From positions 1 through 64,000 of the forward strand of contig JAJZDZ010000013.1 in assembly GCA_021851325.1 (NCBI GenBank): DNA of 64,000 nucleotides. The letters are read 5' to 3'. The notes under the pieces were generated by a model that saw only the letters and a program-made list of their open reading frames with translations, was not told the origin of the DNA and did not search any database. The translations under genes were made by a program, and so were the position numbers. This document shows positions 3,998 to 59,840 of the stretch, piece by piece. Positions within the stretch are counted from its first letter, which is position 1, and each line of letters opens with the position of its first letter. The stretch is from Pseudomonadota bacterium. GTDB lineage: Bacteria; Pseudomonadota; Alphaproteobacteria; Micropepsales; Micropepsaceae.

Positions 3998-4231
3998 TTA
4001 AAACTCGCCGGACTGGCGCAGGCGTTTGATCAGAAGATCATCGACAATGAGCCGGCGTACGCGGGCACGACGGATCTCAAGCTGGCGCACTGCCAGATAG
4101 CCGATGGCGATGGCGCCGACGGCGCAGGCGCCCACCGCCCACATGCCAAGGGCAGAGGCGGCGGTAAGCCTTGCGGCGGATGAAAGCGAACTCAGGGATG
4201 GGCCATTTGCGGCCACAGCATTCTGCGTCAT
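3998..4231 (-). CDS. Small membrane protein, second gene of the thiolase-fold operon
   Basis: 77 residues with one clear hydrophobic segment (about residues 28-48, A-V-G-A-C-A-V-G-A-I-A-I-G-Y-L-A-V) followed by a strongly basic R-x-R-R-A-R-V-R-R tail, predicting a cytoplasmic C-terminus. Its ATG overlaps the upstream stop codon by one base (TGATG), so it is very likely translationally coupled to the thiolase-fold/OB-fold gene at 4231-5682. No family is recognised and there is no function to assign beyond membrane location. Confidence 0.6.
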   Translation of the reverse strand: MTQNAVAANGPSLSSLSSAARLTAASALGMWAVGACAVGAIAIGYLAVRQLEIRRARVRRLIVDDLLIKRLRQSGEF

Positions 4232-32021: not shown

Positions 32022-32660
32022 GCGAATTTGATCCTTACGGGTAAGCCCGCGGCAAGGATGTACCCCAGGAGTAAAGACATGGCTAAGCAGGAGAGCCGGT
32101 AAGCCCGCCTGAAGAATTTGTATAGAAGCGCCGCAAGGGAACAACGAATACTCAGAGTTGCGTGCAGGTGCTACCAGGCCCCGCAATAGGGCAAAATTTA
32201 CTTGAGCGCCACGACGAGGATGCGCCGTCGCTGCTCTTCCCAGTTCCAGGATTACCAGTTGACCACTGGCCCCTTATGCCTGAGCCCGCCCCATGCTGCC
32301 TTCGTACGCACGAAGCAGCCGCGCCCCGGTGGTTCACAGCCGCTCCATGGACCGGACGCGCGTTGCTCCCGGCAACCAGAGCAGAGCGCGCGGCTGGCAA
32401 GCGGCGTACGGAACGGAATCCAGTGAGGGCGCCATGACAAAATAATGCCCGTCATGCTGTCGGCCGCATCTGCGCGCCATCGGCTCTGCGGTACCGGACG
32501 TGCTCGGGGGTCATCCGGCACGATCCCCGGACCCGAGAAGTAAGCCTGGTCACCGCCCCTGCATAGGACCTGGAGCCCAATCCCCTCACCGGATGACGTC
32601 TGGACAGGACCCCCGGCCATCCCGTAAAAGACCCGCCTTCCGCCGGGCCGGCCCGGCCGG
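32022..32660. other. Intergenic region left of the tRNA, no gene seen
   Basis: About 640 bases. Frames crossing this stretch, including a minus-strand one through the tRNA, lack protein features. The last 25 bases before the tRNA are GGCC-rich. Nothing else is noted; this is the core side of the island junction. Confidence 0.5.
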
Positions 32661-32736
<76 letters not shown>

Positions 32737-32763
32737 CGCCCCCATTCTCCCACATTCACCAGT

Positions 32764-32823
32764 GTCCGCAGTTATCCGCTAAGCTGCTGGTTTTTAAGCA
32801 CTTTATCGTCCGTAGTCATCCGC
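32764..32823. repeat. Direct repeats between tRNA and integrase (putative integrase arm sites)
   Basis: GTCCGCAGTTATCCGC at 32764-32779 and GTCCGTAGTCATCCGC at 32808-32823 agree at 14 of 16 positions, 44 bases apart, same orientation. A short GTCC-AGCC-GGAC inverted repeat follows near 32844. The place, between attachment gene and integrase, suggests arm-type binding sites; this is inference. Confidence 0.5.
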
Positions 32824-32860
32824 GGCCGTTCGCCAATTGTTCTGTCCAGCCGGACGATTT

Positions 32861-32901
32861 GTTGGTACGGTGTTGGTATCGAAACCAACCGAATGTTGGT
32901 A
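32861..32901. repeat. GTTGGTA triplet repeat before the integrase start
   Basis: GTTGGTA occurs at 32861, 32872 and 32895 on the plus strand, steps of 11 and 23 bases, so all lie on about the same helix face. An inverse AACCAAC lies between the last two. The set ends 26 bases before the integrase start and could bind a directionality factor or the integrase for autoregulation. Confidence 0.4.
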
Positions 32902-32926
32902 TTTTGAACCTGGTGGGACGACGACA

Positions 32927-34141
32927 ATGGCTCTGACAGATGTTGCCTGCCGCGGGACCAAACCCGGGCCGCAACTGCGAAAGCTCACGGACAGTGCCGG
33001 CCTTCAGCTGTGGATTTTTCCTAACGGCTCGAAACTGTGGCGCTATGCCTACCGCTTCAACGGCAAGCAGAGGCTGCTGGCCCTTGGGGCCTATCCCGAG
33101 GTCAGCCTGGCCGAGGCCCGCAAGGCCCGAGATGCCGCCATGGCCCTGGTCAAAGACGATACCGATCCAGTCCGCGCCAAAAAGCTAGTCAAATTGGCCG
33201 CTAAGGCAGCACGCGCGGAGTTTCAAGCGGTCGCGGAAGAATACCTGGCCAAGCTTGAGCGCGAAGGCCGTGCCGAAAAGACCTTGATCAAGCTGCGGTG
33301 GCTGTTGGGGTTGGTCTACCCCGTCCTCGGCCCCTTGCCGATCGCCTCCATCAAGCCGGTCGAAGTGTTAGCTGCCTTACAAGCTGTCGAACGGCGTGGC
33401 CGCTACGAGACAGCACGGCGGCTGCGATCGACGATTGGCGCGGTCTTTCGGTTTGCAATCGCAACGGGACGGGCCGAAACCGATCCTACCCCTGCTTTGG
33501 TTGGCGCTTTGACCACCCCCAAGGTCTCCCATCGCGCCGCGATTGTAGAACCCCGACGGGTCGGCGCCCTGCTACGAGCCATTGACGGCTTTGATGGCCA
33601 ACCGACCACCCGGTTTGGCTTACAGCTGATGGCATTGCTGTTTCCACGCCCCGGCGAACTACGGTTAGCCACTTGGTCGGAATTTGAACTGGGCGACGCG
33701 ATTTGGCGCGTACCAGCAGCTCGCGCCAAGATGCGCAGAGAGCATGTCGTGCCCCTCTCCACCCAAGCGATTGATCTGCTCAAGCAGCTTTCGGAGGTGA
33801 CCGGGAGCGGACCGCTGCTGCTGCCGAGCGTGCGCAGTGCTCGCCGGTCGATCTCTGATAACGCCCTGAATGCGGCACTTAGGCGTATGGGCTTTGGTCA
33901 AGACGAGATGACGGCCCACGGGTTTCGGGCGATGGCATCAACCTTGTTAAATGAAAGCGGGCAATGGCAGGTCGACGCGATCGAACGACAGCTGGCTCAT
34001 ATCGACGGAAACAATGTGCGTCGAGCCTATGCCCGCGGCCAGCACTGGCTGGAACGCGTGCGCATGATGCAATGGTGGGCCGATTATTTAGATCGTCTCA
34101 GGACCGAAGACGCTCCAAGGGCGGTTGCAAGCTTTGGCTAA
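32927..34141 (+). CDS. Tyrosine-type integrase, P4 family, with DUF4102 N-terminus
   Basis: 404 residues from ATG at 32927. Residues 1-85 are the DUF4102 arm-binding module (L-W-R-Y-A-Y-R-F-N-G-K-Q-R-L-L-A-L-G-A-Y-P). Residues 95-180 form the SAM-like core-binding domain, and 200-404 the catalytic domain with R241 in R-P-G-E-L-R, H331 and R334 in H-G-F-R, H358 and nucleophile Y368 in V-R-R-A-Y. All active-site residues are present, so it should be functional. It catalyses integration and excision at the adjacent tRNA-Phe. Direct and triplet repeats lie just upstream. Confidence 0.95.
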   Translation: MALTDVACRGTKPGPQLRKLTDSAGLQLWIFPNGSKLWRYAYRFNGKQRLLALGAYPEVSLAEARKARDAAMALVKDDTDPVRAKKLVKLAAKAARAEFQAVAEEYLAKLEREGRAEKTLIKLRWLLGLVYPVLGPLPIASIKPVEVLAALQAVERRGRYETARRLRSTIGAVFRFAIATGRAETDPTPALVGALTTPKVSHRAAIVEPRRVGALLRAIDGFDGQPTTRFGLQLMALLFPRPGELRLATWSEFELGDAIWRVPAARAKMRREHVVPLSTQAIDLLKQLSEVTGSGPLLLPSVRSARRSISDNALNAALRRMGFGQDEMTAHGFRAMASTLLNESGQWQVDAIERQLAHIDGNNVRRAYARGQHWLERVRMMQWWADYLDRLRTEDAPRAVASFG

Positions 34142-35695: not shown

Positions 35696-36832
35696 ATGTT
35701 TTATTCGCGGAAACTGAACAGAGAAACAGGCCGGGTGGAGGTTTGGGAATGTGAATGGTCCAACCCTGGCACTGGCATGGCAAAGAAGGAATTTATACGC
35801 AAATTCGCGGACGAAGTTGAAGCCGAATTTGAGCACGAGCAGTACTCTGCCTCAGCTGCAGTATGCTGGGCCCCTGGCCGCACCATTGGCAATATCGCCG
35901 TTAGCTCAGAGGAAGTATTTGGGAGGTTTTCTGGGAAGTCTGGCACAAATGCAATATTACCATGCCATATAATTCCATGTGGAAAATTTCGAAATGGCGC
36001 ATCGCGTTGGTATTGTAAGACACACCAAATCCATTGGGGCACCAAGGCTGACATCGCTGCATTACCAGAGTCGGGCGAGGTTCTATGCAGCAACCATTTG
36101 ACGGAAATGAGCTATGTCGTCGACCCGCTCGAAGTGGCATTTAGCGAATATGAAGAAATCGGAATATGGTGCTCATTGCCACCGGCAATTTCGACACGAC
36201 CCATTACGAAACGGACGCCTAGGATTCACGTTCATAAGCGGTTCTCCGGCGCAGAAAAGAAGGTCTTGGATCGTGACTTCGATGCGATCGTTTGCTCTTA
36301 CAATCAAAATGCTGGTCTCTTTTCCAGCACTGAAATTACCCTGATCCAAATAACACCCCCAGCCGCGTTCGAATTCGTTCGATCCATCGAATTGCAGTAT
36401 GAGACATCCTGCGTCACCTGCAAAAAGTGCGGCTACCCTCACCTCGATCTTGGTAGCTTTGCTCGGACACCACATTCCAAGCACTTCTGTGGAAACTGCG
36501 GCAACGATAGCATTTGGAGCACTGATAAGATCGTCTCAACCCCGTTGAAGCCGCTCCATGATCAGTTTAACAACAGCAATACCTATTTGACGCCGGAGCG
36601 TAAGCTCAACCTTGATCAGTATACTGATCACCACTTCGAAATATGGTCATCCACTCCTGCAGTGCTATGGACCGCGAACCGGCCGCAAGAGCGGGGTATA
36701 CATGTACATGTCTATGAAGGAACAAGCATCAACCGCATCATCGATGATACTTTCGGCGAAGTCGTATTGAATGGGAAGGCATTAGACCGGAAGCAGCTTT
36801 GGCAAAGTATGACCGAAAATACGATCTATTGA
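35696..36832 (+). CDS. Hypothetical protein with a C-terminal-half zinc ribbon
   Basis: 378 residues, no family recognised. It has no signal peptide or membrane span. At about residues 240-278 lies a paired metal-binding motif, C-V-T-C-K-K-C-G-Y-P-H-L-D-L-G then F-A-R-T-P-H-S-K-H-F-C-G-N-C-G. It has two C-x2-C knuckles with extra conserved-looking His, and looks like a nucleic-acid-binding zinc ribbon. The flanks hold Trp/His-rich strands. Codon use is more A/T-rich than the core part of the window, consistent with transfer. Its place between a toxin-antitoxin pair and a nuclease suggests a defence role, which is inference. Confidence 0.75.
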   Translation: MFYSRKLNRETGRVEVWECEWSNPGTGMAKKEFIRKFADEVEAEFEHEQYSASAAVCWAPGRTIGNIAVSSEEVFGRFSGKSGTNAILPCHIIPCGKFRNGASRWYCKTHQIHWGTKADIAALPESGEVLCSNHLTEMSYVVDPLEVAFSEYEEIGIWCSLPPAISTRPITKRTPRIHVHKRFSGAEKKVLDRDFDAIVCSYNQNAGLFSSTEITLIQITPPAAFEFVRSIELQYETSCVTCKKCGYPHLDLGSFARTPHSKHFCGNCGNDSIWSTDKIVSTPLKPLHDQFNNSNTYLTPERKLNLDQYTDHHFEIWSSTPAVLWTANRPQERGIHVHVYEGTSINRIIDDTFGEVVLNGKALDRKQLWQSMTENTIY

Positions 36833-36857
36833 GGCCAAAGCTTAGCTCTTAACACTT

Positions 36858-36873
36858 TGCCTTTCGCAACGAA
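36858..36873. terminator. Possible hairpin after the zinc-ribbon gene
   Basis: CTTTCG-CAA-CGAAAG, a 6-base stem with a tight loop, lies about 25 bases past the stop codon. No T run follows, so the terminator call is weak. Confidence 0.3.
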
Positions 36874-37071
36874 AGAAGCTACCAACAGGGTATTTTGCGG
36901 AAAATCCACTATTCGCCCAACTTCCCGAAGGTAACCGACAAAGGTGTTGTAAGGTTGAGCCCACACGCGCCTTTCAACAAATGGTCTAACAGCCGGAACC
37001 TAGCCGCTCCGCGCAGCATGCGGTCCGACCGCGCTTCTCTGATGCCCCAATCGGCGATGGTGCGACTTCTT

Positions 37072-37215
37072 TTATGCATTCAGTTCCGCAGCCAGCGCTT
37101 CCGCTTGCTCTAAGACCGTCCACACGGCAGCATCTCGCAAATCTGGTGGACAGCCGTACTCACGCACAATTCGCTTAACAAGTACCCGCATCCGCGCATC
37201 ACACCGCGTGAAGAC
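37072..37215 (-). pseudogene. Relic of a type I restriction HsdR C-terminus (DUF3387-like)
   Basis: On the minus strand a 47-codon frame ends at 37072. It reads [19 protein letters not shown], then [17 protein letters not shown]. This is the very end of the HsdR family that carries a DUF3387 tail (typical wording L-R-K-Y-G-Y-P-P-D and T-V-L-E-Q-A-E). The frame is closed immediately upstream by a TAA at 37216-37218, and the rest of the 1000-residue protein is absent. The complete HsdR at 42-45 kb belongs to another subtype and ends differently. It is probably the scar of an older restriction system. Confidence 0.65.
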
Positions 37216-37274
37216 TTAGACCTGAATGCCATTATTTCAGTTGTCTACAAAATGCATTTAGCTCTCGCCAATTC

Positions 37275-39056
37275 TCATTCGGTTGGAGGTGGGGCAGCGA
37301 CATCGTTTCCACCGGAGGCAGCTTTGGCCCTCGTCCATACTTTTCTAATAAAGTCGCGAGCATCTTGAAGTTCTGGGTCGGTCCCCAGGATTCGTTCTTC
37401 AAGCACTTTCTCAACGAACCCGGGACCATGTGATCCAATACTACGACAGAAGCCTTCGATTTCACCAACTGGTACGATCCACAGACCATGCTCTCCGCAC
37501 TTTTCGATGAGGGCGTCAAAATGCTTTATTGTCTCGCCGGCGGAGAGTGCACTGCGCCCGCTCCGTTTCATAGCACTCCACGGTGACACGGTCCGGAAGA
37601 CTTCCTTAATTGCTCTTTCTCTATCCTCTGGGAACTCTCCCGTTCCCTGTACTCCTTGCAATTGACCCGCTATCATTTTGGCCACCTGTTCCGCATTTAG
37701 CGGCGGACGCTGTCGCAAAACCGACTCGTTGACAGCTTCCCATGAAGTGCCCACGTCCACCCAGTCACCACCAAGCTTCTCAAAAAGATTTTTGAAGGTG
37801 CCTTTGTCATCAAGTACATCGATGTCGGCAATAACCGAGACGGGTACATCGAGGGAACGCAGCGTTTCCGCAAGCTTTGCCATCCGATGCTTTCCTGAGG
37901 TGTGGACAAAGAGAACGTCAGGACGCCGGTCTCCTGATATCGAAGGCAGATTCAGAATAGACTGGTAGAGCATGCAGTCTGCATCTGCCTCGCAGATAAC
38001 AACATGTTCAAAAAATATTCCGTCAAAAACGCGCGAGAATCTCGCCAGCGTGTCCTTAGCAACGGCTTTAGTCTTTTCCTTACCAAGTTCTCTTACGCGG
38101 TTAATATTTCCCTCTCGATGAAGGCGAACGATACGTACTTTGTCTACGCCGCCTTCGATCAAACCGTCAAGAACATCGATGCTGTGAGTGGCGATGAAGA
38201 GCTGAGTATTTGCGGGCTTGTTTTGAGCCAAATAGCGCCCAAGCAGCCGCGCCTGGGGAGGGTGCAAAAACGCTTCAGGCTCATCAAGAAACTGAATGGA
38301 ATGCGTCGTCTCAGCCAGTACATGCAGTATCACGGCTGCGAAACTGCGCATCCCATCGCCTTGAGACTCGAGTGTGACATTCGTTGATTGAAGCGATACC
38401 ACAAACTCTTTAGATAGCTCGTCTTTGCCAGCTGGGACGGAAGGCTTTTCGCCAACGTAGAGCGGAAAGCTGCTTCCACCCGCACGAAATGGCGTGAGGT
38501 CTTTGCCGAAAGCATGCCGGAACTTGCCGCTAATACCGCTCGCGAGCTCAGGGTCCATCAGAAGAAAGTGAATCGGGTGTGTCGGAGGCGAGCGAAAGAG
38601 TGATAGGGCTGGAGCTGCGTTGGCGTCCTGGATGCGCCCTTCAGTATTTATCCGCTTTGCGAAGAACGGTGCCACTGGGCTTAGGTTTCCACTATCGAAG
38701 TATGGGATATGCGAGGTATGAATGCTATAGCCAATACCGCCGTACTGGAGGTTGGGTAGATCCCCGGTCTTTTGTGAATTTTCTTCAAGATACCTACGCA
38801 AGTCCTCCTGCGTTCCGACTTTGAGCATATTAGCATTCTTTATCACGAGTCCTGGGATTGAATTCGCAACCCATGCCTCTAGCTCTCGGAGCGCAGCGCT
38901 TTTTCCAGCATTGTTCGGGCCGACGAAAACGATAATGTCGTCATGATCGAGCGCTAATATTGTTCCGTCAGAGAAATGTATTTTCTCAAACGATAAACGC
39001 GGGCGCAGCAAATCAGTTTTAGCGGTCGCCGGCTCAACTTGATCGTCTTCACTCAT
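37275..39056 (-). CDS. OLD-like ATP-dependent nuclease (AAA ATPase + TOPRIM)
   Basis: 593 residues. The SMC-like ATPase half carries Walker A G-P-N-N-A-G-K-S (46-53), an ABC-type signature S-Q-G-D-G-M-R-S-F (231-239) and Walker B L-D-E-P-E-A-F-L-H-P (257-266), then a switch His (A-T-H-S-I-D, near 291). The TOPRIM nuclease half has E356 in V-I-C-E-A-D-A-D and the D-I-D pair at 411-413. This is the plan of OLD and GajA-type nucleases, which cut DNA when nucleotide or phage signals change. No GajB-like helicase is adjacent. It stands alone between the HsdR relic and the type I operon. Confidence 0.88.
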   Translation of the reverse strand: MSEDDQVEPATAKTDLLRPRLSFEKIHFSDGTILALDHDDIIVFVGPNNAGKSAALRELEAWVANSIPGLVIKNANMLKVGTQEDLRRYLEENSQKTGDLPNLQYGGIGYSIHTSHIPYFDSGNLSPVAPFFAKRINTEGRIQDANAAPALSLFRSPPTHPIHFLLMDPELASGISGKFRHAFGKDLTPFRAGGSSFPLYVGEKPSVPAGKDELSKEFVVSLQSTNVTLESQGDGMRSFAAVILHVLAETTHSIQFLDEPEAFLHPPQARLLGRYLAQNKPANTQLFIATHSIDVLDGLIEGGVDKVRIVRLHREGNINRVRELGKEKTKAVAKDTLARFSRVFDGIFFEHVVICEADADCMLYQSILNLPSISGDRRPDVLFVHTSGKHRMAKLAETLRSLDVPVSVIADIDVLDDKGTFKNLFEKLGGDWVDVGTSWEAVNESVLRQRPPLNAEQVAKMIAGQLQGVQGTGEFPEDRERAIKEVFRTVSPWSAMKRSGRSALSAGETIKHFDALIEKCGEHGLWIVPVGEIEGFCRSIGSHGPGFVEKVLEERILGTDPELQDARDFIRKVWTRAKAASGGNDVAAPPPTE

Positions 39057-39291
39057 CCCATCCCCTTCAATACGCGCAAATTGACCGGTTCATGGCCATT
39101 GCTTTCGCTCCGACGGTTTAACTCATTGATCGAGCCGTATCGTCAATCTATATCATGGCGTACAGTCTTATTAGCCGCGCAGTTCCGGATGCAGCTCACT
39201 AGATAAACCTACCTACTGCAACCGCTAGTGCGAACGTCCGCAACCCAGATTACCCACCTTGGCTACATCGGCGTTCATTTGTTGCCCATTG

Positions 39292-40602
39292 TTAATAATT
39301 TTTCCTCACCTGTGCGCGACGCCCGCGCCTTGTCGAACTGCCGTCCACACGCTCGCTCTTGAGGCTATCCAATAGAACGCTCGCGGGTTCATCGTCAGGG
39401 TTCTGGGGCACGAGTTCGCCCCGAAAAGCTTTGGCAAGTACCGCTTGATCCAGATGGCCGATCAGCTTGCGGGCACTGGTTGCCTCAACTGCAAGCCGGT
39501 CGATCTGGGCGAATGCCCTCTCAATGTGGCCGACAATAGCTTTTCGAGCCTCTGGAGAGGCTATTGGAACGCGAACGGCTCTAATATCATCGAGGCCAAG
39601 GCCAGCTCGTGTTGCGCCGCGATTGCGCTCTAGCAATTGCTCTTGACCCAAATCGCTCGACAAATACCAAGCGACAAAAGCGGCCTCTGAAGGCGTGTGG
39701 AGTCGAACTAACGCAACATGCTGGTTTACGTAGGCCTCACCTATATTAGGTGGCACTAAGCCTACTCGGCCGAGGTCCGCCGTGATCGTTATAACTAAAT
39801 CGTTTGGGTGTACCCTTGTTCTTTGGCCCTCGGTCCCCTCCGGAGGCGAAACCATCTGCGTGTCGCTCCAATCGAGACTGACGTTTAACCGCTGAACGTT
39901 TCCGACGCGAATAAACCGTGCTCCGCCCTCCGAGTAGAACTTGGCCCAGCCACGCGACCCGCTTGTTACAAATTCTGAACGCTTTCCCAGGGGAGCGGCG
40001 TCATTCTCATCCCATTCCCTCCGAAATGCCGCCGCCAGGATCGCCTGCTTGTACTTCCCGACGAGGCGAGGGATGTGGCCCAGGTGATTGCGGGCACGCT
40101 TGGATTTATCTGACAGGCTATCGATCTTCACCACGATCCGTTGCTGCTCGGGCATGGGCGGAAGCGCAATAATTGTTTCCTCAAACTTGCCTTTGGTGAC
40201 ATGACGCAATCCCACTCCGCCGTGAGCTTTGGCGATTTGCTCGTCAAGCGTTTGATTGATCGCATATCGAAAAAATGACTTGTCGACCGCTCGGCGGTCA
40301 TAGCGAACGTTGAAAATATGTTGGTTTAGTATCGCCTTCGGGCCATTCCAGATATGAGCTCCAAAAGAAGTTCCCGGCGTTCCGGACCATGCAAAGAGCA
40401 AATCGCCGGGTTCCACTAAGAACTTCTCTTCTACTTCTCTATCAAAGTAATTGAACTTCGCGTCCGACCGGTTCAGGTTTTGAATGCGTACAATAGGTAA
40501 ACCCACAGATGTCCAGTCAGACGGCTTGAACGCCCTTCCGTTCACTAAGTCACAGAGATCGCCAATTTTCGCCTTCGACCACCCAAGCGGCATTTTAGTC
40601 AT
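39292..40602 (-). CDS. hsdS: Type I restriction-modification specificity subunit HsdS
   Basis: 436 residues with two target-recognition domains separated by a conserved helical spacer (M-P-E-Q-Q-R-I-V-V-K-I-D-S-L-S-D-K), and a second, similar spacer near the C-terminus (A-I-V-G-H-I-E-R-A-F-A-Q-I-D-R-L). The C-terminal A-V-L-A-K-A-F-R-G-E-L-V-P-Q is typical of HsdS. The two domains read the two halves of a bipartite site and bind HsdM and HsdR. Its start overlaps the hsdM stop by four bases (ATGA). Both domains look complete; no phase-variable repeat is visible. Confidence 0.94.
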   Translation of the reverse strand: MTKMPLGWSKAKIGDLCDLVNGRAFKPSDWTSVGLPIVRIQNLNRSDAKFNYFDREVEEKFLVEPGDLLFAWSGTPGTSFGAHIWNGPKAILNQHIFNVRYDRRAVDKSFFRYAINQTLDEQIAKAHGGVGLRHVTKGKFEETIIALPPMPEQQRIVVKIDSLSDKSKRARNHLGHIPRLVGKYKQAILAAAFRREWDENDAAPLGKRSEFVTSGSRGWAKFYSEGGARFIRVGNVQRLNVSLDWSDTQMVSPPEGTEGQRTRVHPNDLVITITADLGRVGLVPPNIGEAYVNQHVALVRLHTPSEAAFVAWYLSSDLGQEQLLERNRGATRAGLGLDDIRAVRVPIASPEARKAIVGHIERAFAQIDRLAVEATSARKLIGHLDQAVLAKAFRGELVPQNPDDEPASVLLDSLKSERVDGSSTRRGRRAQVRKNY

Positions 40603-42074
40603 TCCGCTGCCTCTGCTACCTTTGTCGCCTCTTCCACGGTGTCTGGCTCCAGTTCCTCGGATAGCGTCTCAATCTCTTCAAGCGCCGCCTTTAGGTGCCC
40701 GATGATAGCGGCCGCAATGTCCTCCGGCTCTGTCAGCGTCTCTTCCGCGTCGGCCTCGGTATCGCGTAGCCATACAATATCGAGGTTGTCTTGGCGCGCA
40801 GCGATCTGCTCGCGCGTGAAGCACCGCCAGCGGCCGACTTCACCTCGATCCTTCCGCTTGGCTTCGCCATTGGGGTCGTTGCCATAAGCAGTTTCAAACT
40901 CCTTGAAATCCTCGACAGTGAGCGGCCGGGTCTTGCCGAAAGCGGGCATGTTGGCCCGCATGTCGTAGACCCATACGGACTTAGTGTTGACCTTGTCGGT
41001 CTTGCCCCGCTGGAAAAACAGCACGTTGGTCTTAACGCCCTGCGCGTAGAAAATGCCGGTTGGCAGCCGCAGGATCGTATGCAATGCGCAAAGGTCCATC
41101 AGCCACGTCCTCAGGCGGCGTCCGGTATTGTCCTCGAACAGCACGTTATCGGGAACCACGACCGCCGCCCGCCCCCCGGGCTTCAGTGCCCGCACGATAT
41201 GCTCGACAAAGGCAAGCTGTTTGTTGGAGCTATCGGCTGTCACTGAAAAATCCGACCGCGTCGGGCGGCCACCACCCTTTTTTGTGCCGAATGGTGGATT
41301 GGTCAGAACCAGGTCGGCCTTGCTCAATGCCTCGCCGTCCGGTGACAGCGTGTCGATGTTAGCAACACCCCCCTCGATCCCGTGCAGCAGCAAGTTCATC
41401 ATGCAAAGCCGGTGCGCATCAGTGACGAGTTCTGCTCCAAAAAATGCATTGTTGCGTTGAAAGAATGCCTCTTCGGGGGTAAGTGTGTAGAGATCGTCTG
41501 TGTGGTCCTTGATGTAGCGGTCAGCTGCGACCAGGAAGCCGGCTGTCCCGGCGGCGGGGTCCTGGATGACCTCGCCGTGCTGTGGCTTCATTAGCCTCAC
41601 AATGCAGTCGATAAGTGGGCGCGGCGTAAAGTACTGCCCTGCGCCAGATTTTTTCTCGGCAGCGTTTTTCTCTAATAGCCCTTCATAGAGGTTACCTAAT
41701 CCCTCCTCTCGAGCAGAGAACCAGTCGAGCTTGTCGATATTCGTCGTCAACGACTTGAGGTTCGTAGGCTTGCGGAGCCGGGTTTGCGCGTCCGTGAAAA
41801 TGGACTGAACTATGGCGTCTTTGTATGTCTCTGCATTGCCTAGATCGAGGAGTAGTCGCTTGTAGAAGTCGAGCTGTTCAAGGCCCTCGCGCTTAGCCAA
41901 TTCACGCCATCGGTAGCCCTTCGGCAAGCGGCTCTCGCGACCTGTTTCGGCTAGCATCTTCAGAAACAGCAGATAGGTCAGCTCCGTGACGTACTCGTTG
42001 TAGGTAATACCGTCATCGCGTAGAACGTGACAGAGCGCCCACAGTTTGGCGACGATGTCTTGGGTGGTGTTCAT
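40599..42074 (-). CDS. hsdM: Type I restriction-modification N6-adenine methyltransferase HsdM
   Basis: 491 residues. The N-terminal helical HsdM_N region (residues 1 to about 130) precedes the gamma-class methylase. SAM motif I is D-P-A-A-G-T-A-G-F at 172-180, catalytic motif IV is N-P-P-F at 259-262, and G-Q-Y-F-T-P-R lies before motif I. It methylates adenine in the site read by HsdS and protects host DNA. It lies in an hsdR-hsdM-hsdS order with one-base overlap to hsdR and ATGA overlap to hsdS, so the three subunits are made from one transcript. Confidence 0.96.
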   Translation of the reverse strand: MNTTQDIVAKLWALCHVLRDDGITYNEYVTELTYLLFLKMLAETGRESRLPKGYRWRELAKREGLEQLDFYKRLLLDLGNAETYKDAIVQSIFTDAQTRLRKPTNLKSLTTNIDKLDWFSAREEGLGNLYEGLLEKNAAEKKSGAGQYFTPRPLIDCIVRLMKPQHGEVIQDPAAGTAGFLVAADRYIKDHTDDLYTLTPEEAFFQRNNAFFGAELVTDAHRLCMMNLLLHGIEGGVANIDTLSPDGEALSKADLVLTNPPFGTKKGGGRPTRSDFSVTADSSNKQLAFVEHIVRALKPGGRAAVVVPDNVLFEDNTGRRLRTWLMDLCALHTILRLPTGIFYAQGVKTNVLFFQRGKTDKVNTKSVWVYDMRANMPAFGKTRPLTVEDFKEFETAYGNDPNGEAKRKDRGEVGRWRCFTREQIAARQDNLDIVWLRDTEADAEETLTEPEDIAAAIIGHLKAALEEIETLSEELEPDTVEEATKVAEAAE

Positions 42075-45000
42075 TAGCCTGCTTCTTTCCAGGTCTCTTC
42101 GTTGATGGCAGCGAGGACACTTTCTAGTTCCCCGTCGAATACCTTGTTGAGCCGATTAAATCCACCATCAGCACGGAATGGCTCCTCATCAATCGCAGCT
42201 CTGTCAATCACAACTTCTTTCTCAACTTGCTCGCCAATGCGCTTAAGCCAGCGCCGTTGTGGATCAGTCCAAGATCGGCTCGCGAGAATGCGTCGCATGG
42301 CAGCGCGTACCCGATCAATGTAGGGCACCAGCGGATCGCCGAGTGCGGCCTGCCTAACGAAGCCAATGATAGAAGCGGCAATCTCTTCGTTTTTGGCATC
42401 GGCCCAGGCCCGGCTTAGACTGGCTTCAGAAAAGCCTTGGCGATCAAGGGTGAGTTTCAGCTGTCTGAGATCCGCGCGCGTGAGCTCGCGAGGCCGCTGG
42501 ACCACGAGCCTAAGGGCCATGATGCTATTTACGTTGTCCCGGACAAATGCGGAAAAGCTATCGAGAAAGTCCTGGGGGCGCTGAGCTTCACCGTAACCCC
42601 GGCTCACAGACACGATCTGGTCACCGTGGTGAGAGATTGGCAGAAAGCGCGGACTATTGCCCTCAGCCTGCCAATCCAGGATCGGCCCGACAGCTGACCG
42701 GCCCGAAAACCAGGAGCTGATGTCATCTGGCGAGCTTGTCAACAGCCGTTGCAATGTTGCTTCTGGCGTTTCACCTGTAACTGCTTCGAATTGTTCGCGA
42801 GCTTCTTTGGATAAGCGATTCAATTTGCGCCGAAGTTTTACAGCAAACTGCGCTCGGATCACGTCACGGTGCTTAAATTCCTTTTCGACAACCAGTTCTT
42901 CCACCAACTGCTGGAAGCTGATCGATGGGTTGACCACGACGGGTCGCATTTCTGTTAGTTCTTGCAGATGTGGGTACAGATCGACGGCATCGAAAATACG
43001 GAAAATATCTTTTCTTATATCTGGGCATGGTCTGGTAGCGCGACCAATTATCTGCTCATAGAGGATGCGGCTATTCACGCGACGTAAGAACACTAGATTG
43101 GTGATCGACGGAATATCTATCCCGGTCGTAAGCAAATCCACAGTTACGGCGATTTTTGGACTACTATCGTTCCGAAACGATCGGATCAGGTTCTTAACTC
43201 GATCTACGCTACCCGTAATTTTTCGCACGGCGTCGTCATCGATGCCGCCATAGGCAGCGGCAAACGCCTTCTTGATCTGGGCAACCACAATATCGGCGTG
43301 AGCGTCGGTCGCCGCAAAGATCAAGGTTTTACCGGGAAGCGCCGGATCAATATGCTTAGCCAGCTCCTCGGCAACAACCCGATTGAACTCTTCCGTGATG
43401 ACCTGCTTGTTGAACTGCTCGATCTCGTACCGTATTTCGTCAGGCGCGTGGGCAAGGTCTACTTCACCCGTTTTGGTGTTTAGGAGTTCAAGCTGTTCAT
43501 CTTTCTTGAATGCAATACCAGCACGAGAAAGGGCGGTCTCTATTCGAACGGGCGGCTCGTGATCGATCAGGAAGCCATCAATCACCGCCTCACGGTACGA
43601 GTACTTGTATATCGGATCGCCAAAGATATCGGTCGTGTGCAACGCAGGGGTAGCGGTGAGTCCAATCTTCACGGCGTCAAAGTATTCCAGCACCCGGCGG
43701 TACTTTGAGATGTAATCGTCTTGGCTGCGGAAACTCAGCTCCGCGTCGCTCATTTCGCGATCAAGCAAATACCCCCGATGGCACTCGTCCACCACGATAA
43801 GATCATATTGATCGATAGGCGGCGCCTCAGAGACGTCTGCTTGATAGAGTACCCGGCGCACGAGCCCCTGGATCGTACAAATATGCACCTTCGTTTCGGT
43901 TTCCGGAGCGACATCCTGCAATTCCTTAAGGCCAAAAATCTCGGCAAACGTTTTTCCGGATACGATTTTAGTGGTGGAGAACTCCCCGGCTGTTTGGTCG
44001 CCAAGGGCACTGCGATCCACAACGAAACAGACGCGGCTGAACCGCTTGGTTGTGAGCAGTCGATACAAAAGTGCAATGGCGAGCTTGGTCTTTCCCGTGC
44101 CGGTTGCCATTGCTACCAGCATGTTGGTCTTGTCCGAGGCAAGTCCAGTCTCTACAGCCTCGATTGCCTCGCGCTGATAATAGCGCAGCGGAAAGCCAAA
44201 CTCGAATGGAAGCTTCTTCAGGGCCGCGTCAGCTGTCTGCTTGTCTATCGCCAAGCGGCTGCCTAAGCCTTCTGGCGTTGGCCAATCGACTAGGGCTCGA
44301 CGGTGATTGGTCGATAACCGAACATCCCTGAACCAAATGCCACTCTCGGTTTCGATCTGTTTGAGATAAGAGCGGCCGTTCGCTGCAAAGACGAAGGGCA
44401 CATAGTGGTCACCCCAGGGGCCTCCTGCGAATTCACCTCCCTCTGGTACGCTGATCCCGACTGAGTATCGTTCGGCTTGATCGATAGCTGCTGAAACGTT
44501 TTTCCGGCGACGCTTGGCTTCGACTACGGCGACAAGCATGGTTCCTATAAAAAGAGCATAATCTGCGGGACCACTCTTGGTAGGCCATTCGGCGATGGCC
44601 ATGTTCCGGCCTTTCGTCGGACGGACGCCTTGCGAATAGCGCATCAACTTTGTGTCTGCTTCCCATCCACGGTCCCGGAGCTGCTGGTCAATCCAAGCTC
44701 GTGTTGTCGCCTCATCAAGGTCGATCTGAGCTGCGGCAAACTCACCTTTCTGAATGAAGGAGAGGGTCTCCTCCTTCGGTGCCTTTTCGGCGATAGCCTG
44801 AAGGGCAATAAGGCGGCCCCTGATCTCGAGCTTTTCAGCTTCGATGTCTTGGGCCAGCTTCTCCCAAACGGATCGCTCCTCAGCTTCTCGTCGCAGCTGT
44901 TCTTCCGCGCTTTCCCGGGCGCGGGCATGCTCGGCTGCCGCCCGTTTTGCGCGGCTCACCTCATCTTCGGTAGCAACGAGCTTTTGACGGAGAGCGTTGA

Positions 45001-45451
45001 TCTCGGTCTTTAGCCCGGCTGTCGCATCGACCGGCTCCGGGGGCGGCACGAAAGCGCCAGGTTTGAAGTCTGACTGCCGGCCATAGGTCCGATGAAACCA
45101 GATGGCGAGCTGGCGGGCCAGCTTCAAGCCGTTTAGGGCGTCGGCATGACGGCCCTGCATCTCGTGGGCGGCGGCATTGCCGAGCTTACGAAGTTGGTGG
45201 AATAGGTCGGCAGTCTCCCGAGGAACAGCACGCTCGAACCCGAGGCGACGAAGCGTCTCCTCGAAAGTCTCCCGCTCGCCCACATAAAGGGCATGGTGAG
45301 CGGCGACGAGCTTGGCGATCAGTTCTGCGAGCTGGCGTAGCTTGATTAGGCAAGTTGACGGATCGTCACGAAAATAGCGCTCCGCCAGGCCGCCCAGCCG
45401 AACCAGCGCGGAGTCGTGGACCTCCAGGAAGCTGAAATTCGAAGTCTGCAC
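42074..45451 (-). CDS. hsdR: Type I restriction endonuclease subunit HsdR
   Basis: 1125 residues. Residues 1-130 are a DUF4145-like helical domain (A-L-Y-V-G-E-R-E-T-F-E-E-T-L-R-R-L-G-F), followed by a coiled coil (about 145-220). The PD-(D/E)xK nuclease has D297 in G-P-A-D-Y-A-L and E311-x-K313 in V-V-E-A-K. The superfamily 2 translocase follows with Walker A A-T-G-T-G-K-T (449-455) and D-E-C-H box (555-558). C-terminal assembly helices close the protein. It pulls DNA toward the complex and cuts at a distance. First gene of the operon. Confidence 0.96.
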   Translation of the reverse strand: MQTSNFSFLEVHDSALVRLGGLAERYFRDDPSTCLIKLRQLAELIAKLVAAHHALYVGERETFEETLRRLGFERAVPRETADLFHQLRKLGNAAAHEMQGRHADALNGLKLARQLAIWFHRTYGRQSDFKPGAFVPPPEPVDATAGLKTEINALRQKLVATEDEVSRAKRAAAEHARARESAEEQLRREAEERSVWEKLAQDIEAEKLEIRGRLIALQAIAEKAPKEETLSFIQKGEFAAAQIDLDEATTRAWIDQQLRDRGWEADTKLMRYSQGVRPTKGRNMAIAEWPTKSGPADYALFIGTMLVAVVEAKRRRKNVSAAIDQAERYSVGISVPEGGEFAGGPWGDHYVPFVFAANGRSYLKQIETESGIWFRDVRLSTNHRRALVDWPTPEGLGSRLAIDKQTADAALKKLPFEFGFPLRYYQREAIEAVETGLASDKTNMLVAMATGTGKTKLAIALLYRLLTTKRFSRVCFVVDRSALGDQTAGEFSTTKIVSGKTFAEIFGLKELQDVAPETETKVHICTIQGLVRRVLYQADVSEAPPIDQYDLIVVDECHRGYLLDREMSDAELSFRSQDDYISKYRRVLEYFDAVKIGLTATPALHTTDIFGDPIYKYSYREAVIDGFLIDHEPPVRIETALSRAGIAFKKDEQLELLNTKTGEVDLAHAPDEIRYEIEQFNKQVITEEFNRVVAEELAKHIDPALPGKTLIFAATDAHADIVVAQIKKAFAAAYGGIDDDAVRKITGSVDRVKNLIRSFRNDSSPKIAVTVDLLTTGIDIPSITNLVFLRRVNSRILYEQIIGRATRPCPDIRKDIFRIFDAVDLYPHLQELTEMRPVVVNPSISFQQLVEELVVEKEFKHRDVIRAQFAVKLRRKLNRLSKEAREQFEAVTGETPEATLQRLLTSSPDDISSWFSGRSAVGPILDWQAEGNSPRFLPISHHGDQIVSVSRGYGEAQRPQDFLDSFSAFVRDNVNSIMALRLVVQRPRELTRADLRQLKLTLDRQGFSEASLSRAWADAKNEEIAASIIGFVRQAALGDPLVPYIDRVRAAMRRILASRSWTDPQRRWLKRIGEQVEKEVVIDRAAIDEEPFRADGGFNRLNKVFDGELESVLAAINEETWKEAG

Positions 45452-51051: not shown

Positions 51052-51726
51052 TCAGTTATGGCTTACATAAAAGTACCGCTGAATAAGAGACAACTCGGCA
51101 TCAAACGTTTCAGCATTATTCGTTACCCGAATTGCTTTCACCGCAAATACACACGCACCGTAGTCAGCGCTGGCACTGCGAGCTAATTCATGCGCAGCAT
51201 CTCCAAATTGACCAAGTGATAGCGGCTGACCAGAGGCCAGTGTGTTGAATCCAGCCTTGGCTGACGACTTTGCGTTATCGCCCTCGTTCCGCAAACTGGT
51301 TCCCGTTATTATGTCGTTGGGTAGTAGGTGAAATTCCAACAAAAAGTGAGAGGCTAAGGCACATGCAGGTCGGCCCGGCGCATGACCAGACAATCTTTTA
51401 TAGGTCCTACCACCAATTTTAATCGTCGTGCTACGCGGTTTTAGTGTTCTGCCATCAATCCCAATTTCCGAAAGAAATTGCTCCAACTTTAAGATGTGAC
51501 GTCTAAGATTGGCATTTTCCCGCTGCCTTGCTGCCAGCTCACTTTTGAGTGTTGCATTTTGATGCATCATCTCATTTAGCCTATATTGCAGCCTAGGAAT
51601 TTCCTTTAGACCTTCCTTTTTTGCTAAAAAGGAAAAAGCAATCGCCATAAACACCAGGAGAATCATCAGCTCAGTCATACTCAAGCTGACTATCTGCGCC
51701 CTCCGATTCCGAGAAGCATTAGGCAT
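51052..51726 (-). CDS. MotB/ExbD/ZorB-like single-span membrane protein
   Basis: 224 residues from ATG at 51726 (overlaps the previous gene by 8 bases; a GTG at 51744 is possible). A short basic cytoplasmic tail is followed by one membrane helix, V-S-L-S-M-T-E-L-M-I-L-L-V-F-M-A-I-A-F-S-F (about 13-33). MotB, ExbD and ZorB have the proton-binding Asp at this position (M-T-D-L-M style); here it is Glu19. A coiled coil (43-87, Arg/Glu/Gln-rich) leads to a periplasmic domain with A-D-Y-G-A-C-V-F-A-V-K-A near the end. No OmpA peptidoglycan-binding motif is seen. Last gene of the motor-like operon. Confidence 0.7.
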   Translation of the reverse strand: MPNASRNRRAQIVSLSMTELMILLVFMAIAFSFLAKKEGLKEIPRLQYRLNEMMHQNATLKSELAARQRENANLRRHILKLEQFLSEIGIDGRTLKPRSTTIKIGGRTYKRLSGHAPGRPACALASHFLLEFHLLPNDIITGTSLRNEGDNAKSSAKAGFNTLASGQPLSLGQFGDAAHELARSASADYGACVFAVKAIRVTNNAETFDAELSLIQRYFYVSHN

Positions 51727-52840
51727 TGGAGTTGCGCGCGTCACGAATTGCGTCTGTGAGAAGCTGCGCGCTTTCCGTTAGCGCACCATTATATTCAATT
51801 AGATCTGCCTTCGCACCTTTTACAAGCTCAGAAAAGTTATTCCCCAACTCTCCTATATCAGTGCCAACCTTCGCAACCCCCCGATCGAGTGCCGACGACA
51901 GCGCCGATAAATGTTCAACCATGCTCCGTGCGGCGCTTCCCAGATTAGAGATTGAGTTTAGCGTGTCGCCAGTAACATCCAGACTTTCCTTTGACTGATC
52001 CGCTGCAACTTTTGTTCTTTTAGATGCTTCTGTAATTGCCCGGTTAGCATCGTCTAGCGTGGCTCGTAGGGCGGCCAGATCATCTCTCAATCCCTCGAGT
52101 GCCTCTGTGGGAACTCCTAATGCTTTAATGCGCTTGACGATGTCCTGAACAGCGCCATCAAGTTTATTGACTGTTTCCTCTGTCAGGTGAGACAACCTTT
52201 TAACGGAAGCTTCAAGGCCATCTTCAATGTTCTTTACGGCGGCTTTGGTTTGCTTTTCCAAATCCGTTGATAAGTCTACCGCAGACATTTCCAGAGTGTC
52301 TCGTACCTCTCGAAACGACGTGATAGCTCTCGCAATCTCTGCATTTAATTTTTCTGCATAGCGAGCAATGTCATCCGTAATTTTTTCCGCGACGTCTGTT
52401 GTAGTTGTTAGGAACTGGATGATCACAATTCTCGCGGTCATACCAACAAACGTTGTCGTAATCGCAATTCCAAATTGCTTAATTATCTCATCACTGGTCA
52501 GCGAGTGCGAACCACGGCCAGTAAGGGCCAGCATCAATGCAAACAATGTCAGTATGAAGCCCTGATAGTAGATGCTATCGGCAAACCTCTCAACGCTATG
52601 AAGGCGTTGCCAATTGGTCATTCCGATAATAAAATAAGTGACCATTGCCAGAACCGCAAAAAGTTCGCTACCTGCCCATTCGCTCAAGCCGCCGGCAATG
52701 ATTGCAAGCAGAAAGCAGACGTTAATTAATGCGGTAGTGTCGTTCCAATAGAGGAGGAGTGTGCTCGCCACCCTCCCTCGCTTTGGATCTGCACCAACCT
52801 CTATAGGATAGGACCCAGCTTCTGGCTCGGATTGACTCAT
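51719..52840 (-). CDS. MotA/ExbB/ZorA-like membrane protein with long coiled-coil tail
   Basis: 373 residues. Four membrane helices lie at about 36-56, 58-75, 90-108 and 122-144. The last reads F-G-I-A-I-T-T-T-F-V-G-M-T-A-R-I-V-I-I-Q-F, matching the Thr/Gly-rich pore helix of MotA/TolQ/ExbB/ZorA proton channels. Residues 150-370 are a continuous coiled coil (repeated L-x-x-x-L-x-x with E/K/D), like the long intracellular tail of ZorA. The start overlaps the previous stop (ATGA), and the next gene encodes the ZorB/MotB-like partner. It is probably the stator/pentamer subunit of an ion-driven motor. The family is inferred from topology and motif, without a search. Confidence 0.72.
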   Translation of the reverse strand: MSQSEPEAGSYPIEVGADPKRGRVASTLLLYWNDTTALINVCFLLAIIAGGLSEWAGSELFAVLAMVTYFIIGMTNWQRLHSVERFADSIYYQGFILTLFALMLALTGRGSHSLTSDEIIKQFGIAITTTFVGMTARIVIIQFLTTTTDVAEKITDDIARYAEKLNAEIARAITSFREVRDTLEMSAVDLSTDLEKQTKAAVKNIEDGLEASVKRLSHLTEETVNKLDGAVQDIVKRIKALGVPTEALEGLRDDLAALRATLDDANRAITEASKRTKVAADQSKESLDVTGDTLNSISNLGSAARSMVEHLSALSSALDRGVAKVGTDIGELGNNFSELVKGAKADLIEYNGALTESAQLLTDAIRDARNSNA

Positions 52841-53565
52841 TTCAGCAAGAGCCTCTCAAGTTCAGCGGGTTCTAAATAAGCATCATCAACTGCGGATACA
52901 TGAGCGCCAACCGACGTTAGCCGCTGTTTCCATGCTGTGATGCGGGCGAGCAATCCACGCTCATTAAAGCGATCCTGTTGTTGCGCTCTATAAAGCATCA
53001 ATACATGCACACCCCTGAGTGTTCTCAACCTAACGGGCCTATGGCGCCCTCTATCTTCGATGAAATCTGAAAGCGCGATAACGCCGTGATAGCCGGGCAT
53101 GTCATTTGCATTCATTAATGACACTGAATTAAATGCCCCCACGATATCGGTTAACGGCTGCGCTTCATGCATGAGTATAAATCGATCGCATCGCTCAATA
53201 AGAAAATCACTCAAAGCTCCAATCTTAGCAAATGTTCCTTTGCTACTAGCAGCTCCAAAAATGTTGGGTGAAAATCGAGCTTGACAGAGAGGAGGCTGAG
53301 AAAGGCTACCGTCTCCAATTTCTAGGTAACGAATGATTACTGGTGGCGTGAGCTCCGGAACCAATTGCGTAATTGTGAGAGCGGTGGCCCGCAGAGCATG
53401 CTGGTCAAGCGGCTTTTCGCGCTGGTTCAGCCATGAACCAGACAGATCAACAAGAACCGTTATATGTGACACGGCCTCGTGTTGAATTCGCATTTGCGCC
53501 GTAGCTGGTGGCGCCAAAAGCAGAAGCAACGCTGCGATAACACGTTTCATGGGCAAGCTAGTCAT
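52837..53565 (-). CDS. Exported von Willebrand A-like protein
   Basis: 242 residues, start overlapping the previous stop (ATGA). A signal peptide (V-I-A-A-L-L-L-L-L-A-P-P-A-T-A-Q, cleavage after A-T-A) precedes strand I-T-V-L-V-D-L-S-G-S-W. The D-x-S-x-S (40-44) is the metal-ion-dependent adhesion (MIDAS) loop of VWA domains. A later S-D-F-I-E-D strand (I-A-L-S-D-F-I-E-D-R-G) supplies a plausible second MIDAS aspartate. Such domains bind a partner through a metal. It is expected in the periplasm, where it may couple the membrane proteins of this operon to another component. Confidence 0.75.
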   Translation of the reverse strand: MTSLPMKRVIAALLLLLAPPATAQMRIQHEAVSHITVLVDLSGSWLNQREKPLDQHALRATALTITQLVPELTPPVIIRYLEIGDGSLSQPPLCQARFSPNIFGAASSKGTFAKIGALSDFLIERCDRFILMHEAQPLTDIVGAFNSVSLMNANDMPGYHGVIALSDFIEDRGRHRPVRLRTLRGVHVLMLYRAQQQDRFNERGLLARITAWKQRLTSVGAHVSAVDDAYLEPAELERLLLK

Positions 53566-55358
53566 AGGGGAGCCGGTGACACGATTGACTCGCGCCCAGA
53601 TCTGCGGTCGAGAATTAGCTGAATTGGATAGCTAGCGGCGTATAGCAAAACTTGAAAGAACAAAAATATAAAGTTCATTGCAAAAGCCATAACACCAAGC
53701 GAGGTATTAATTGCGGACCCTAGGAGATAAAATAATGACAGTGTTGCCGTGGATACCGAAGCGAGTGTCATTCCAAGCCTAGTGCCGCAATAAAGAAGTA
53801 CTAATGCAAAGGTCGTCAATATCAAAAATATGATCACGGCCTCAACTGTAAATAAGCGCGCGGTTATAAACGCATTTCCCAAAATTACGACAGCTAGCAT
53901 GGCAAATCCAGAAATCCTGCCAATGGTGTCTATCGGAAGCGTGGACCCGGGAATGCCCTCGGCGGCGGGAAGTGTATAGGAAGTCCGATGAACTGCATTT
54001 CCCGCGAGAAGCAGCGCAACGGTCTCAGAAAGCGCTAGCGCAATCCCGAGCCACCAGCCCCCATGAAATGTCGCGATAATGCGAAGCGATCGAATCTCGT
54101 ACACATAACTAATACCTACAAATACCAGGATAATGGCTAGAACGATAAATAGGGATTCATAGAACTTGCGCAACATAGCACCACGATCTAATCGTCGACT
54201 ATCTTCCAACCGAATGGCCTGCGCGCGTTCAACCTGCTTCTTTATTTCTGCTTTTGCGCCATGCAAAACGCCAGCCGCAGAGCCGGCATTTTCCTGTGCC
54301 CTTGAAACAAAGACAGTCAAATTGGACAAAGTATCTGCCAGTTGGTCGCGACTACGTCCAATGACCCGATAACTCTGATTTAGCTGATCGACATGACTGT
54401 GACGCTGTACAAGATGTCGGCGCCACTGGCGAACAACATGCGTGTCAGCTAGCAGTGCGACCGACGAAAAAAGTAAATGCCCGGTCCCTGACAAACACAA
54501 AACCAGTGCGGGCCCAAACACACCAAACCACCACCTTGTCCAGAATGGCACGGGATTGGGAGAAAATATGTATACGAACACTTGCTTAAAATTTTGACCC
54601 AAGCCCGCGTAAAAGAGAAACTCTATTGAGGCCAGGAACAAGATGGCTAATAAGGCGGCCACACGCAGCGCATTAGTAGAAGAGGATGCAACAATTCCGA
54701 GGCCAACTTCGACCACTACGAAAGCGAGAGAAATGAGAATCGCTACCGTTGCCCCATACTGCCCCATGCTTTCAGTCATATAGCCAAAAAATTGATTGAG
54801 CATGTATGCATTCACGATACCAGCTGCGATGATAACCGGAGCAACAAATACGAGCGTAACCAATGCTCTGTTATGTCCCTTCTTGATCCGAGAGAAGTCG
54901 TTGGGGTCAGGCGGCTGCATATCTTCGGGCACTAAAACCCGATTTATAGAGTTTGACGCTGCCGTGATCCCACTTTCACACTCAGCCAGAGATTTTTCCA
55001 AACGACCTGCATCAACTTGCAGATTGTCAGCGGCTTCGGCTATGCGACTAAGGGCTAACCTTATTTGCCTGTTTTCCTCCGCAAAGCTGAACATCTGAGC
55101 GTGTTCATCAAGAAAGTGTTCGATAGGGAGTTTCGCGGAGGCAAGTAGCAACTTTGCACGCGCGAAGCACTCTTTTGCAAAAGCTTGCAATACCGAACGT
55201 GCACTAATTAGGAATTTCTCAATAGAACGCCACAGCAAAAATGCGGGGAGTGCCACAGCAATCCAAGCTAGGATTAGGACAAGGGCTACAACAATTGCCC
55301 TAACTATCGATGGCAACATGGGACTGACACTACTTAACTGTACAAAGAACTGGTTCAT
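53562..55358 (-). CDS. Large polytopic membrane protein, first gene of the motor-like operon
   Basis: 598 residues from ATG at 55358, chosen over an upstream start for its GGGGGAGGG ribosome site. About nine to ten membrane helices are seen: residues about 20-42, 170-195, 205-232, 236-256, 278-305, 395-415, 430-450, 480-500, 505-530 and 540-575. Charged helical stretches (about 45-150 and 320-395) lie between them and may be coiled coils. No transporter signature or catalytic motif is recognised. The gene overlaps the VWA-like gene (ATGA) and so is coexpressed with the stator-like pair. Its role could be scaffold, channel or effector; the sequence does not say. Confidence 0.75.
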   Translation of the reverse strand: MNQFFVQLSSVSPMLPSIVRAIVVALVLILAWIAVALPAFLLWRSIEKFLISARSVLQAFAKECFARAKLLLASAKLPIEHFLDEHAQMFSFAEENRQIRLALSRIAEAADNLQVDAGRLEKSLAECESGITAASNSINRVLVPEDMQPPDPNDFSRIKKGHNRALVTLVFVAPVIIAAGIVNAYMLNQFFGYMTESMGQYGATVAILISLAFVVVEVGLGIVASSSTNALRVAALLAILFLASIEFLFYAGLGQNFKQVFVYIFSPNPVPFWTRWWFGVFGPALVLCLSGTGHLLFSSVALLADTHVVRQWRRHLVQRHSHVDQLNQSYRVIGRSRDQLADTLSNLTVFVSRAQENAGSAAGVLHGAKAEIKKQVERAQAIRLEDSRRLDRGAMLRKFYESLFIVLAIILVFVGISYVYEIRSLRIIATFHGGWWLGIALALSETVALLLAGNAVHRTSYTLPAAEGIPGSTLPIDTIGRISGFAMLAVVILGNAFITARLFTVEAVIIFLILTTFALVLLYCGTRLGMTLASVSTATLSLFYLLGSAINTSLGVMAFAMNFIFLFFQVLLYAASYPIQLILDRRSGRESIVSPAPL

Positions 55359-55411
55359 CCCTCCCCCTTTTCCCCTTAGAAAGCTTACTGCTTGAGAGCA
55401 CACGGAATACA

Positions 55412-55428
55412 GTCAAAGTATATTTGAC
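55412..55428. promoter_or_regulatory. GTCAAA-N5-TTTGAC palindrome upstream of the motor-like operon
   Basis: GTCAAA (55412-55417), GTATA, TTTGAC (55423-55428): a perfect 17-base palindrome about 54 bases before the start codon at 55358. On the minus strand it overlaps a TATACT that could be a -10 box. A dimeric regulator binding here would control the operon. No regulator gene is close. Confidence 0.5.
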
Positions 55429-57995: not shown

Positions 57996-58006
57996 AGGCA
58001 GATCAC

Positions 58007-59814: not shown

Positions 59815-59840
59815 ATCCAGCTTATAAAATGGAGGGAGGG

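Follow-up and report, generated by a model that had tools for sequence, protein, structure and literature searches.

A short frame on the minus strand of the window, the whole 64,000-nucleotide stretch of DNA that was analysed, is very probably a dead 3′ remnant of the hsdR gene of a lost EcoR124-like (DUF3387) type I restriction system, left by cargo turnover in an integrase/tRNA-Phe island. The lost system would once have stood in this island, with hsdR as the last of its hsd genes, and would have worked in the lineage rather than arriving broken. As the island cargo turned over, a deletion or an illegitimate recombination event would then have removed the rest of it and brought the last 41 codons up against unrelated sequence beside an OLD-like gene; the scar would have no function of its own. 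It is likely that the lineage lost an older type I gene of a different kind, and the scar, though real, is an ordinary sign of gene turnover. It marks the former presence in the lineage of another type I restriction system, or the arrival of a piece of one, which fits fast turnover in defence islands. The features concerned are the following.

32661-32736, plus strand: tRNA-Phe (gaa), found by ARAGORN; probable insertion site of the island, with a G+C drop beyond it
32837-34141, plus strand: tyrosine integrase (PF00589, PF22022, PF13356) adjoining tRNA-Phe; probable island edge
35696-36832, plus strand: convergent gene of 378 aa and of no known family (no Pfam, NCBIfam or PADLOC match)
36833-37071, no strand: 239 bases between the scar and the 378-aa gene, with no ORF of 100 aa and outside the match in two relatives
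37072-37197, minus strand: hsdR 3′ scar, DUF3387/PF11867 (EcoR124-like); last 41 codons and native stop, 126 bases
37198-37274, minus strand: sequence joining the OLD-like gene to the scar, 77 bases, with six non-homologous codons and a frame-closing stop (three frames read by eye)
37275-39056, minus strand: OLD-like gene of 593 aa, AAA_21/AAA_15 ATPase with an OLD-like TOPRIM domain (PF13304, PF20469)
39292-40602, minus strand: hsdS of the complete type I system (PF01420, 1.7e-22)
40599-42074, minus strand: hsdM of the complete type I system (PF02384, 1.7e-73)
42074-45451, minus strand: hsdR, EcoKI/PRK11448-like, 1125 aa (NCBIfam NF008521, PRK11448)

Identity and extent of the hsdR scar

The minus-strand frame 37072-37215 comprises 47 codons, and a translated search with it returned the C-terminus of HsdR, in agreement with the original prediction of a DUF3387-type protein. 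DUF3387 is the older name of PF11867 (T1RH-like_C). The frame matches this Pfam family at profile positions 292-328 of 329 (E 3.8e-9), with a score of 36.8 bits against a gathering score of 26.8, and it matches the PADLOC REase_I model PDLC03040 at positions 986-1025 of 1029 (E 1.2e-5); nothing was found in NCBIfam at 0.1. A home-made C-terminus profile, constructed from 11 related tails with the scar excluded, gave 63.0 bits for the scar and 12.4 bits for the best frame in 100 resampled versions of the window (first-order Markov, all frames of at least 20 aa), which rules out a chance match. In tblastn with three full-length HsdRs, the scar showed 74-81% over 31 aa, and alignment with its four nearest relatives from the class, of which one is cut by a contig end, gave 72-76% identity over 37-40 residues. 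PDLC03040 was also the best PADLOC model for three full relatives of the scar. The full-length relative in L031 matches EcoR124 HsdR structures (best E 7.1e-34), its last 40 residues lying outside the matched parts.

The homology is somewhat shorter than had been claimed, since it covers not about 45 residues or the whole 47-codon frame, but 41 codons and the stop (37072-37197) of the HsdR C-terminal end. It breaks off abruptly at 37197, as seen in the DNA comparison and in frames read by eye, and upstream of this position blastn detected nothing resembling the 3′ regions of four hsdR genes. Therefore, the codons VFTRCD (37198-37215) and the stop preceding them, which are not recognisably hsdR, belong to the joint. 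The stop reported just upstream does exist, but as part of this joining sequence. At its other end, the scar keeps a native stop, in register with those of full-length HsdRs within about one residue. The junction at 37197 comes from a single draft assembly and could also be an assembly join. Compared with the EcoR124-like (type IC) HsdR, the scar represents the last 41 residues of such a protein with its PF11867/DUF3387 C-terminus, but it keeps only 41 of about 1046 codons and has no helicase or nuclease part, and no other piece of this kind that could supply the nuclease and helicase domains of a working HsdR was found by tblastn in the window. On these comparisons, the scar is best described as a remnant of a PF11867 HsdR and not a working member of the family. 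Over 35 codons, it differs from four relatives at 5-9, 4 and 20-26 sites in codon positions 1, 2 and 3, respectively. This dominance of third-position differences indicates that most of the divergence would have arisen under selection and that the break came later.

The mostly silent divergence, together with the open frame and its internal ATG, is also what would be expected of a retained mini-gene, whose product of about 39 aa, started at that ATG, would still bind a methyltransferase core. Almost no credence can be given to such a peptide, as no sigma-70-like site is present in 36700-39400, where about 2 would be expected by chance, and the DNA of the scar stretch has no relative in 69 genomes of the genus. 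It is likewise scarcely credible that the tail derives from a non-HsdR protein sharing the same C-terminal module, such as the PADLOC candidate PDC-S15. Three full HsdRs do match PDC-S15 models over their last 80-100 residues or so, and G299 and G745 contain frames, of 429 and 436 aa, whose similarity is confined to the end of the module and which have an hsdR close by; the scar itself, however, matches REase_I and not PDC-S15 at E 1e-3, and it shares 72-76% identity with full-length HsdRs in their tails. The two frames, with PF11867 similarity at their end only, stand just before hsdR in L096 (around 6961-7191) and L122 (around 4037-4261), and they are possibly adaptors which use the same docking module.

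Island context and flanks

On the minus strand, the order of elements is hsdR, hsdM, hsdS, the OLD-like gene, the 77-base joint, the scar, 239 bases and the convergent 378-aa gene, beyond which lie a helix-turn-helix gene, a PIN gene and then the integrase next to tRNA-Phe. The G+C content, calculated by kilobase bin, lies at 0.59-0.65 between 26 and 33 kb. Of the 30 bins between 34 and 63 kb, 27 have values of 0.47-0.57, and only the bins at 45, 46 and 62 kb fall outside this range. The region has the look of an integrase/tRNA-Phe genomic island, and both the drop in G+C and the integrase beside tRNA-Phe support the island account. A second att copy, which would mark the far end of the island, was not found on the contig, as judged by direct repeats of at least 13 bases of 32651-32800; on other contigs, the tRNA-Phe end has matches that are short and weak. 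At 51719-61280, where the island is low in G+C, the genes are mostly without a family match, and a CsgG-like protein is encoded at 59829-61280.

The segment 35696-37275 was compared with 69 genomes of the genus, including the window's own. The only matches outside the own genome, in G034 and G046, cover bases 1-1128 of 1580 and correspond to the 378-aa gene, whose relatives there are 86-87% identical, have other neighbours and are convergent with another unknown gene that has no Pfam match. Thus, the flank itself occurs in only two other genomes, so that few of the 69 would be informative, and in none of them was the older system found between the same flanks. The original prediction had proposed a comparison with relatives holding the full hsdR here, and this set offers none; the lack of a relative with the full gene at the place of the scar counts against the turnover account. 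In the genome's own assembly, which is 98% complete, there is no intact gene of the PF11867 family, and the scar is the sole PF11867 match at 1e-4. A search of the same genome with a full HsdR query adds only a distant HsdR-like frame of 808 aa with 30% identity (L111, C91:77853-78458). These searches thus revealed no second, intact gene of this family in the genome, such as an att duplicate should have.

The position of hsdR as the last hsd gene of the lost system is supported by L030-L032, where the order is hsdM, hsdS, hsdR; the hsdS was identified with tblastn in L031 and by eye in L030 and L032. The DUF3387-type hsd cluster in L030 (5730-16110) has a DUF1828/1829 gene inside and genes for PRTase-CE and a reverse transcriptase behind hsdR.

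The intact type I system

The segment 39292-45451 carries the genes of a complete EcoKI/PRK11448-like type I system, whose hsdM and hsdS frames are present and open. The intact HsdR reaches 1578.8 bits with the NCBIfam model PRK11448 (cut-off 729), its C-terminus is EcoEI_R_C in Pfam, its best PADLOC model is PDLC03042, with PDLC03040 only at 1.9e-11, and its best structure match is 3h1t, a solved R subunit other than EcoR124. The HsdS scores 98.7 with PRK09737 HsdS, far below the cut-off of 662. The claim that this HsdR is of a different subtype is therefore upheld: the likeness of the neighbouring system to EcoKI lies in the PRK11448 score, and the difference between the two kinds in the C-terminus, which is EcoEI_R_C in the intact protein and PF11867/PDLC03040 in the scar. 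Because the C-terminal families differ in both Pfam and PADLOC, the scar does not stem from a duplication of the intact hsdR, and two different kinds of type I systems are represented in the window. We take the intact hsdRMS to be type IA and the kind of the scar to be type IC. This naming follows general knowledge and is partly supported by PMC3874165 and PMC5248579.

Within the genus, the hsdRMS of the window has a relative in one other genome, G007. There (L048, 8917-19215), a similar hsdRMS is followed by PtuA-like and PtuB-like (Septu-like) genes and by PDC-S11-like genes; the PtuA-/PtuB-like genes stand after hsdS, in the place of the OLD-like gene and the scar. This arrangement looks as if varying defence genes attach behind hsdS.

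The OLD-like gene

The gene adjoining the joint belongs to the OLD family according to both of its domains (PF13304, 4.5e-15; PF20469, 9.5e-6), which score above their cut-offs. A Gabija system, in which an OLD-like GajA is accompanied by GajB, was rejected, because no UvrD-like GajB neighbour is present: hsdS lies on one side, and the scar and the 378-aa gene on the other. Nine relatives of the OLD-like gene were found: six loci show 44-79% identity, and a further three show 34-35%. The surroundings of six of them (L004, L005, L006, L044, L045 and L046; stretches of 8.9 to 21.8 kb) were searched by tblastn, and neither hsdR, hsdM or hsdS of the window's type nor a DUF3387-type HsdR was found. 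Conversely, a home-made profile detected OLD/AAA-like frames in only one (L092) of 16 DUF3387 hsdR loci, so that a regular companionship of the two was rejected; these loci were defined by an hsdR frame spanning all or most of the query, included L056 with its one stop, and in some cases lay on short contigs. No relatives were found in phages at 1e-20, and four with 29-32% identity were found in plasmids at 1e-40. Since the six relatives lack the type I genes tested and the hsdRMS of G007 has Septu-like genes instead, the OLD-like gene does not appear to be a fixed partner of either type I system. The original description of an OLD-like nuclease neighbouring the junction holds as far as position is concerned, the gene lying 77 bases from the scar.

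Other hsdR tail remnants

Matches to PF11867 were obtained in 34 of 385 genomes of the class. For the phylum the figure was 81 of 398, with 79 above the cut-off; the two sets overlap. Tails were defined as frames shorter than 200 aa with a match reaching at least profile position 326, which gave 11 places besides the window. After those at contig ends were dropped (G490, G567 and G593, and likewise G697 with a 232-aa frame), eight tails were followed. Short or partial matches in G074, G357, G124:C12, G136:C150, G345, G495, G639, G734, G777 and others were left out as tails. The tails in G588 and G509 are below the Pfam cut-off and match full HsdRs at 4e-8 and 2.6e-6. Besides L057, the followed tails are these.

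L058, 7940-8077: hsdR tail of about 45 codons (G124:C178, another bacterial family)
L058, 8124-9866: AAA_15/AAA_21 ATPase gene, starting 46 bases after the stop of the tail
L112, 7016-7144: hsdR tail
L113, 7742-7861: hsdR tail
L114, 629-787: hsdR tail
L115, 6899-7204: hsdR tail
L118, 6746-6994: hsdR tail
L119, 1097-1357: hsdR tail

With the window included, the nine interior tails are about 34, 39, 41, 42, 45, 74, 78, 88 and 120 codons long, the four longest being read from alignments. Those in L112, L113, L114, L115, L118 and L119 (about 34-88 codons) come from other genera of the phylum and have varied neighbourhoods; in L114, HsdR residues near 684-709 are joined to 1005-1037, which is an internal deletion. 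Larger broken copies of hsdR are present in L056, with one stop, and in L059, in pieces. The tail in L058 resembles that of the window in its length, in its hsdR kind (72% to that of L030) and in standing beside an AAA_15/AAA_21 ATPase gene; it differs in having the ATPase gene on the downstream side, with no more than a distant similarity between this gene and the OLD-like gene of the window, and in belonging to another family.

The eight loci were also searched by tblastn at 1e-4 with the hsdRMS, integrase and OLD-like gene of the window, with DUF3387-type hsdM and hsdS, and with the PtuA-like gene. None of these was found, the sole matches being the hsdR remnants and the ATPase gene of L058 itself. 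This control covers two kinds of type I genes in stretches of 7.7 to 16 kb, with the tails of L112, L114 and L119 no more than about 1.1 kb from a contig end. Because these eight loci are without another type I system of the kinds searched, an hsdR scar is not in itself a pointer to replacement; such a tail appears to be an ordinary leftover which does not require a second restriction system in its place.

Origin of the scar

The original prediction had gone further and taken the scar as a sign that one restriction system had been replaced by another at the same site. What holds of this claim is that the remnant comes from a type I restriction subunit of another kind and lies on the same strand, just past the 3′ side of the block formed by hsdRMS and the OLD-like gene; the same-site part was not borne out, as the searches revealed no hsdM or hsdS remnant in the window, no relative with the old gene here, and, by tblastn, no type I gene of the kinds tested near the six OLD relatives examined. 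Direct replacement is a stronger form of the cargo-turnover account, possible but doubtful. In this reading, the EcoKI-like hsdRMS, either alone or together with the OLD-like gene, would have taken over the site of the older system by recombination, and the hsdR tail would have stayed behind as a seam. The scar does lie on the same strand as hsdRMS and in its immediate neighbourhood. In the enteric immigration control region, different type I families are known to alternate at one variable locus, according to PMC12707154, PMC3874165 and PMC2481252, and for this reason replacement is a plausible history here as well; a 2004 study cited in the first of these reportedly deals with cassette-like variation. 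The likeness to that region is limited by the difference that no relative with the old system or with an empty site between the same flanks was found here. The OLD-like gene and its own joint also intervene between hsdRMS and the scar, and, by the searches used, the window is the only one of the nine loci in which another type I system stands beside the tail. In the window, three DUF3387-type systems served as the source of tblastn queries (hsdM, hsdS and hsdR, with the hsdS of L030 and L032 chosen by position and look), and no further remnant was found: the matches with E < 0.01 are the intact hsdM and hsdS, and the others have E 0.077-0.96. With no second remnant found in the window, the newer hsdRMS is not flanked on either side but that of the scar by traces of the older system. 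The literature search yielded no paper joining truncated hsdR, type I restriction, the OLD family and defense. The scar may instead have arrived already broken, as a passenger on the OLD-like gene or another piece of cargo, without ever having been in a working system of the lineage. The OLD-like gene occurs in several unlike contexts and hsdR tails occur alone elsewhere; on the other hand, the DNA similarity to the OLD relative in L004 does not extend beyond the gene, and tblastn found no hsdR tail near the six OLD relatives examined, so that such an arrival is rather unlikely, though far from negligible.

A different question is whether the cargo turnover favoured above was guided by the hsdR 3′ end itself. 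We consider it quite improbable that the 3′ end of DUF3387-type hsdR is a recurrent break or exchange point in the phylum, at which independent losses leave the last 34-45 codons or so, twice beside an OLD/AAA-type ATPase gene, with a recombination process or a constraint on the operon 3′ end fixing where the deletion stops. To our knowledge, such a recurrent break point would be new. OLD/AAA-type genes stand beside two of the five tails of 34-45 codons, those of the window and L058, and they belong to distant families and are in opposite order. Still less probable is that the hsdR 3′ end serves as a preferred recombination or integration site and that an element displaced this 3′ end and left it behind as the scar. 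Such a site would agree with the 34-45 codon length of five of the nine interior tails and with the breaks of the window and L112, which fall within about one codon of each other in the best alignments. However, the break in L112 is less sharp than it appears, because a weaker alignment with 37% identity extends 72 bases further; the genome has no intact partner of the same family, and no relative of the window's integrase was found near the other tails at 1e-4. Setting the tails against head remnants could reveal whether hsd operons undergo exchange at their 3′ ends or whether deletions simply leave these ends behind. Short tails would also be expected if the lengths of remnants simply fall off above the detection limit. 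With an exponential distribution and a mean excess of 29 codons above a limit of 33 codons, estimated by hand, about three of nine tails should be no longer than 45 codons, and five of nine were observed, an excess that is not compelling; the tail lengths fit such a simple fall-off.
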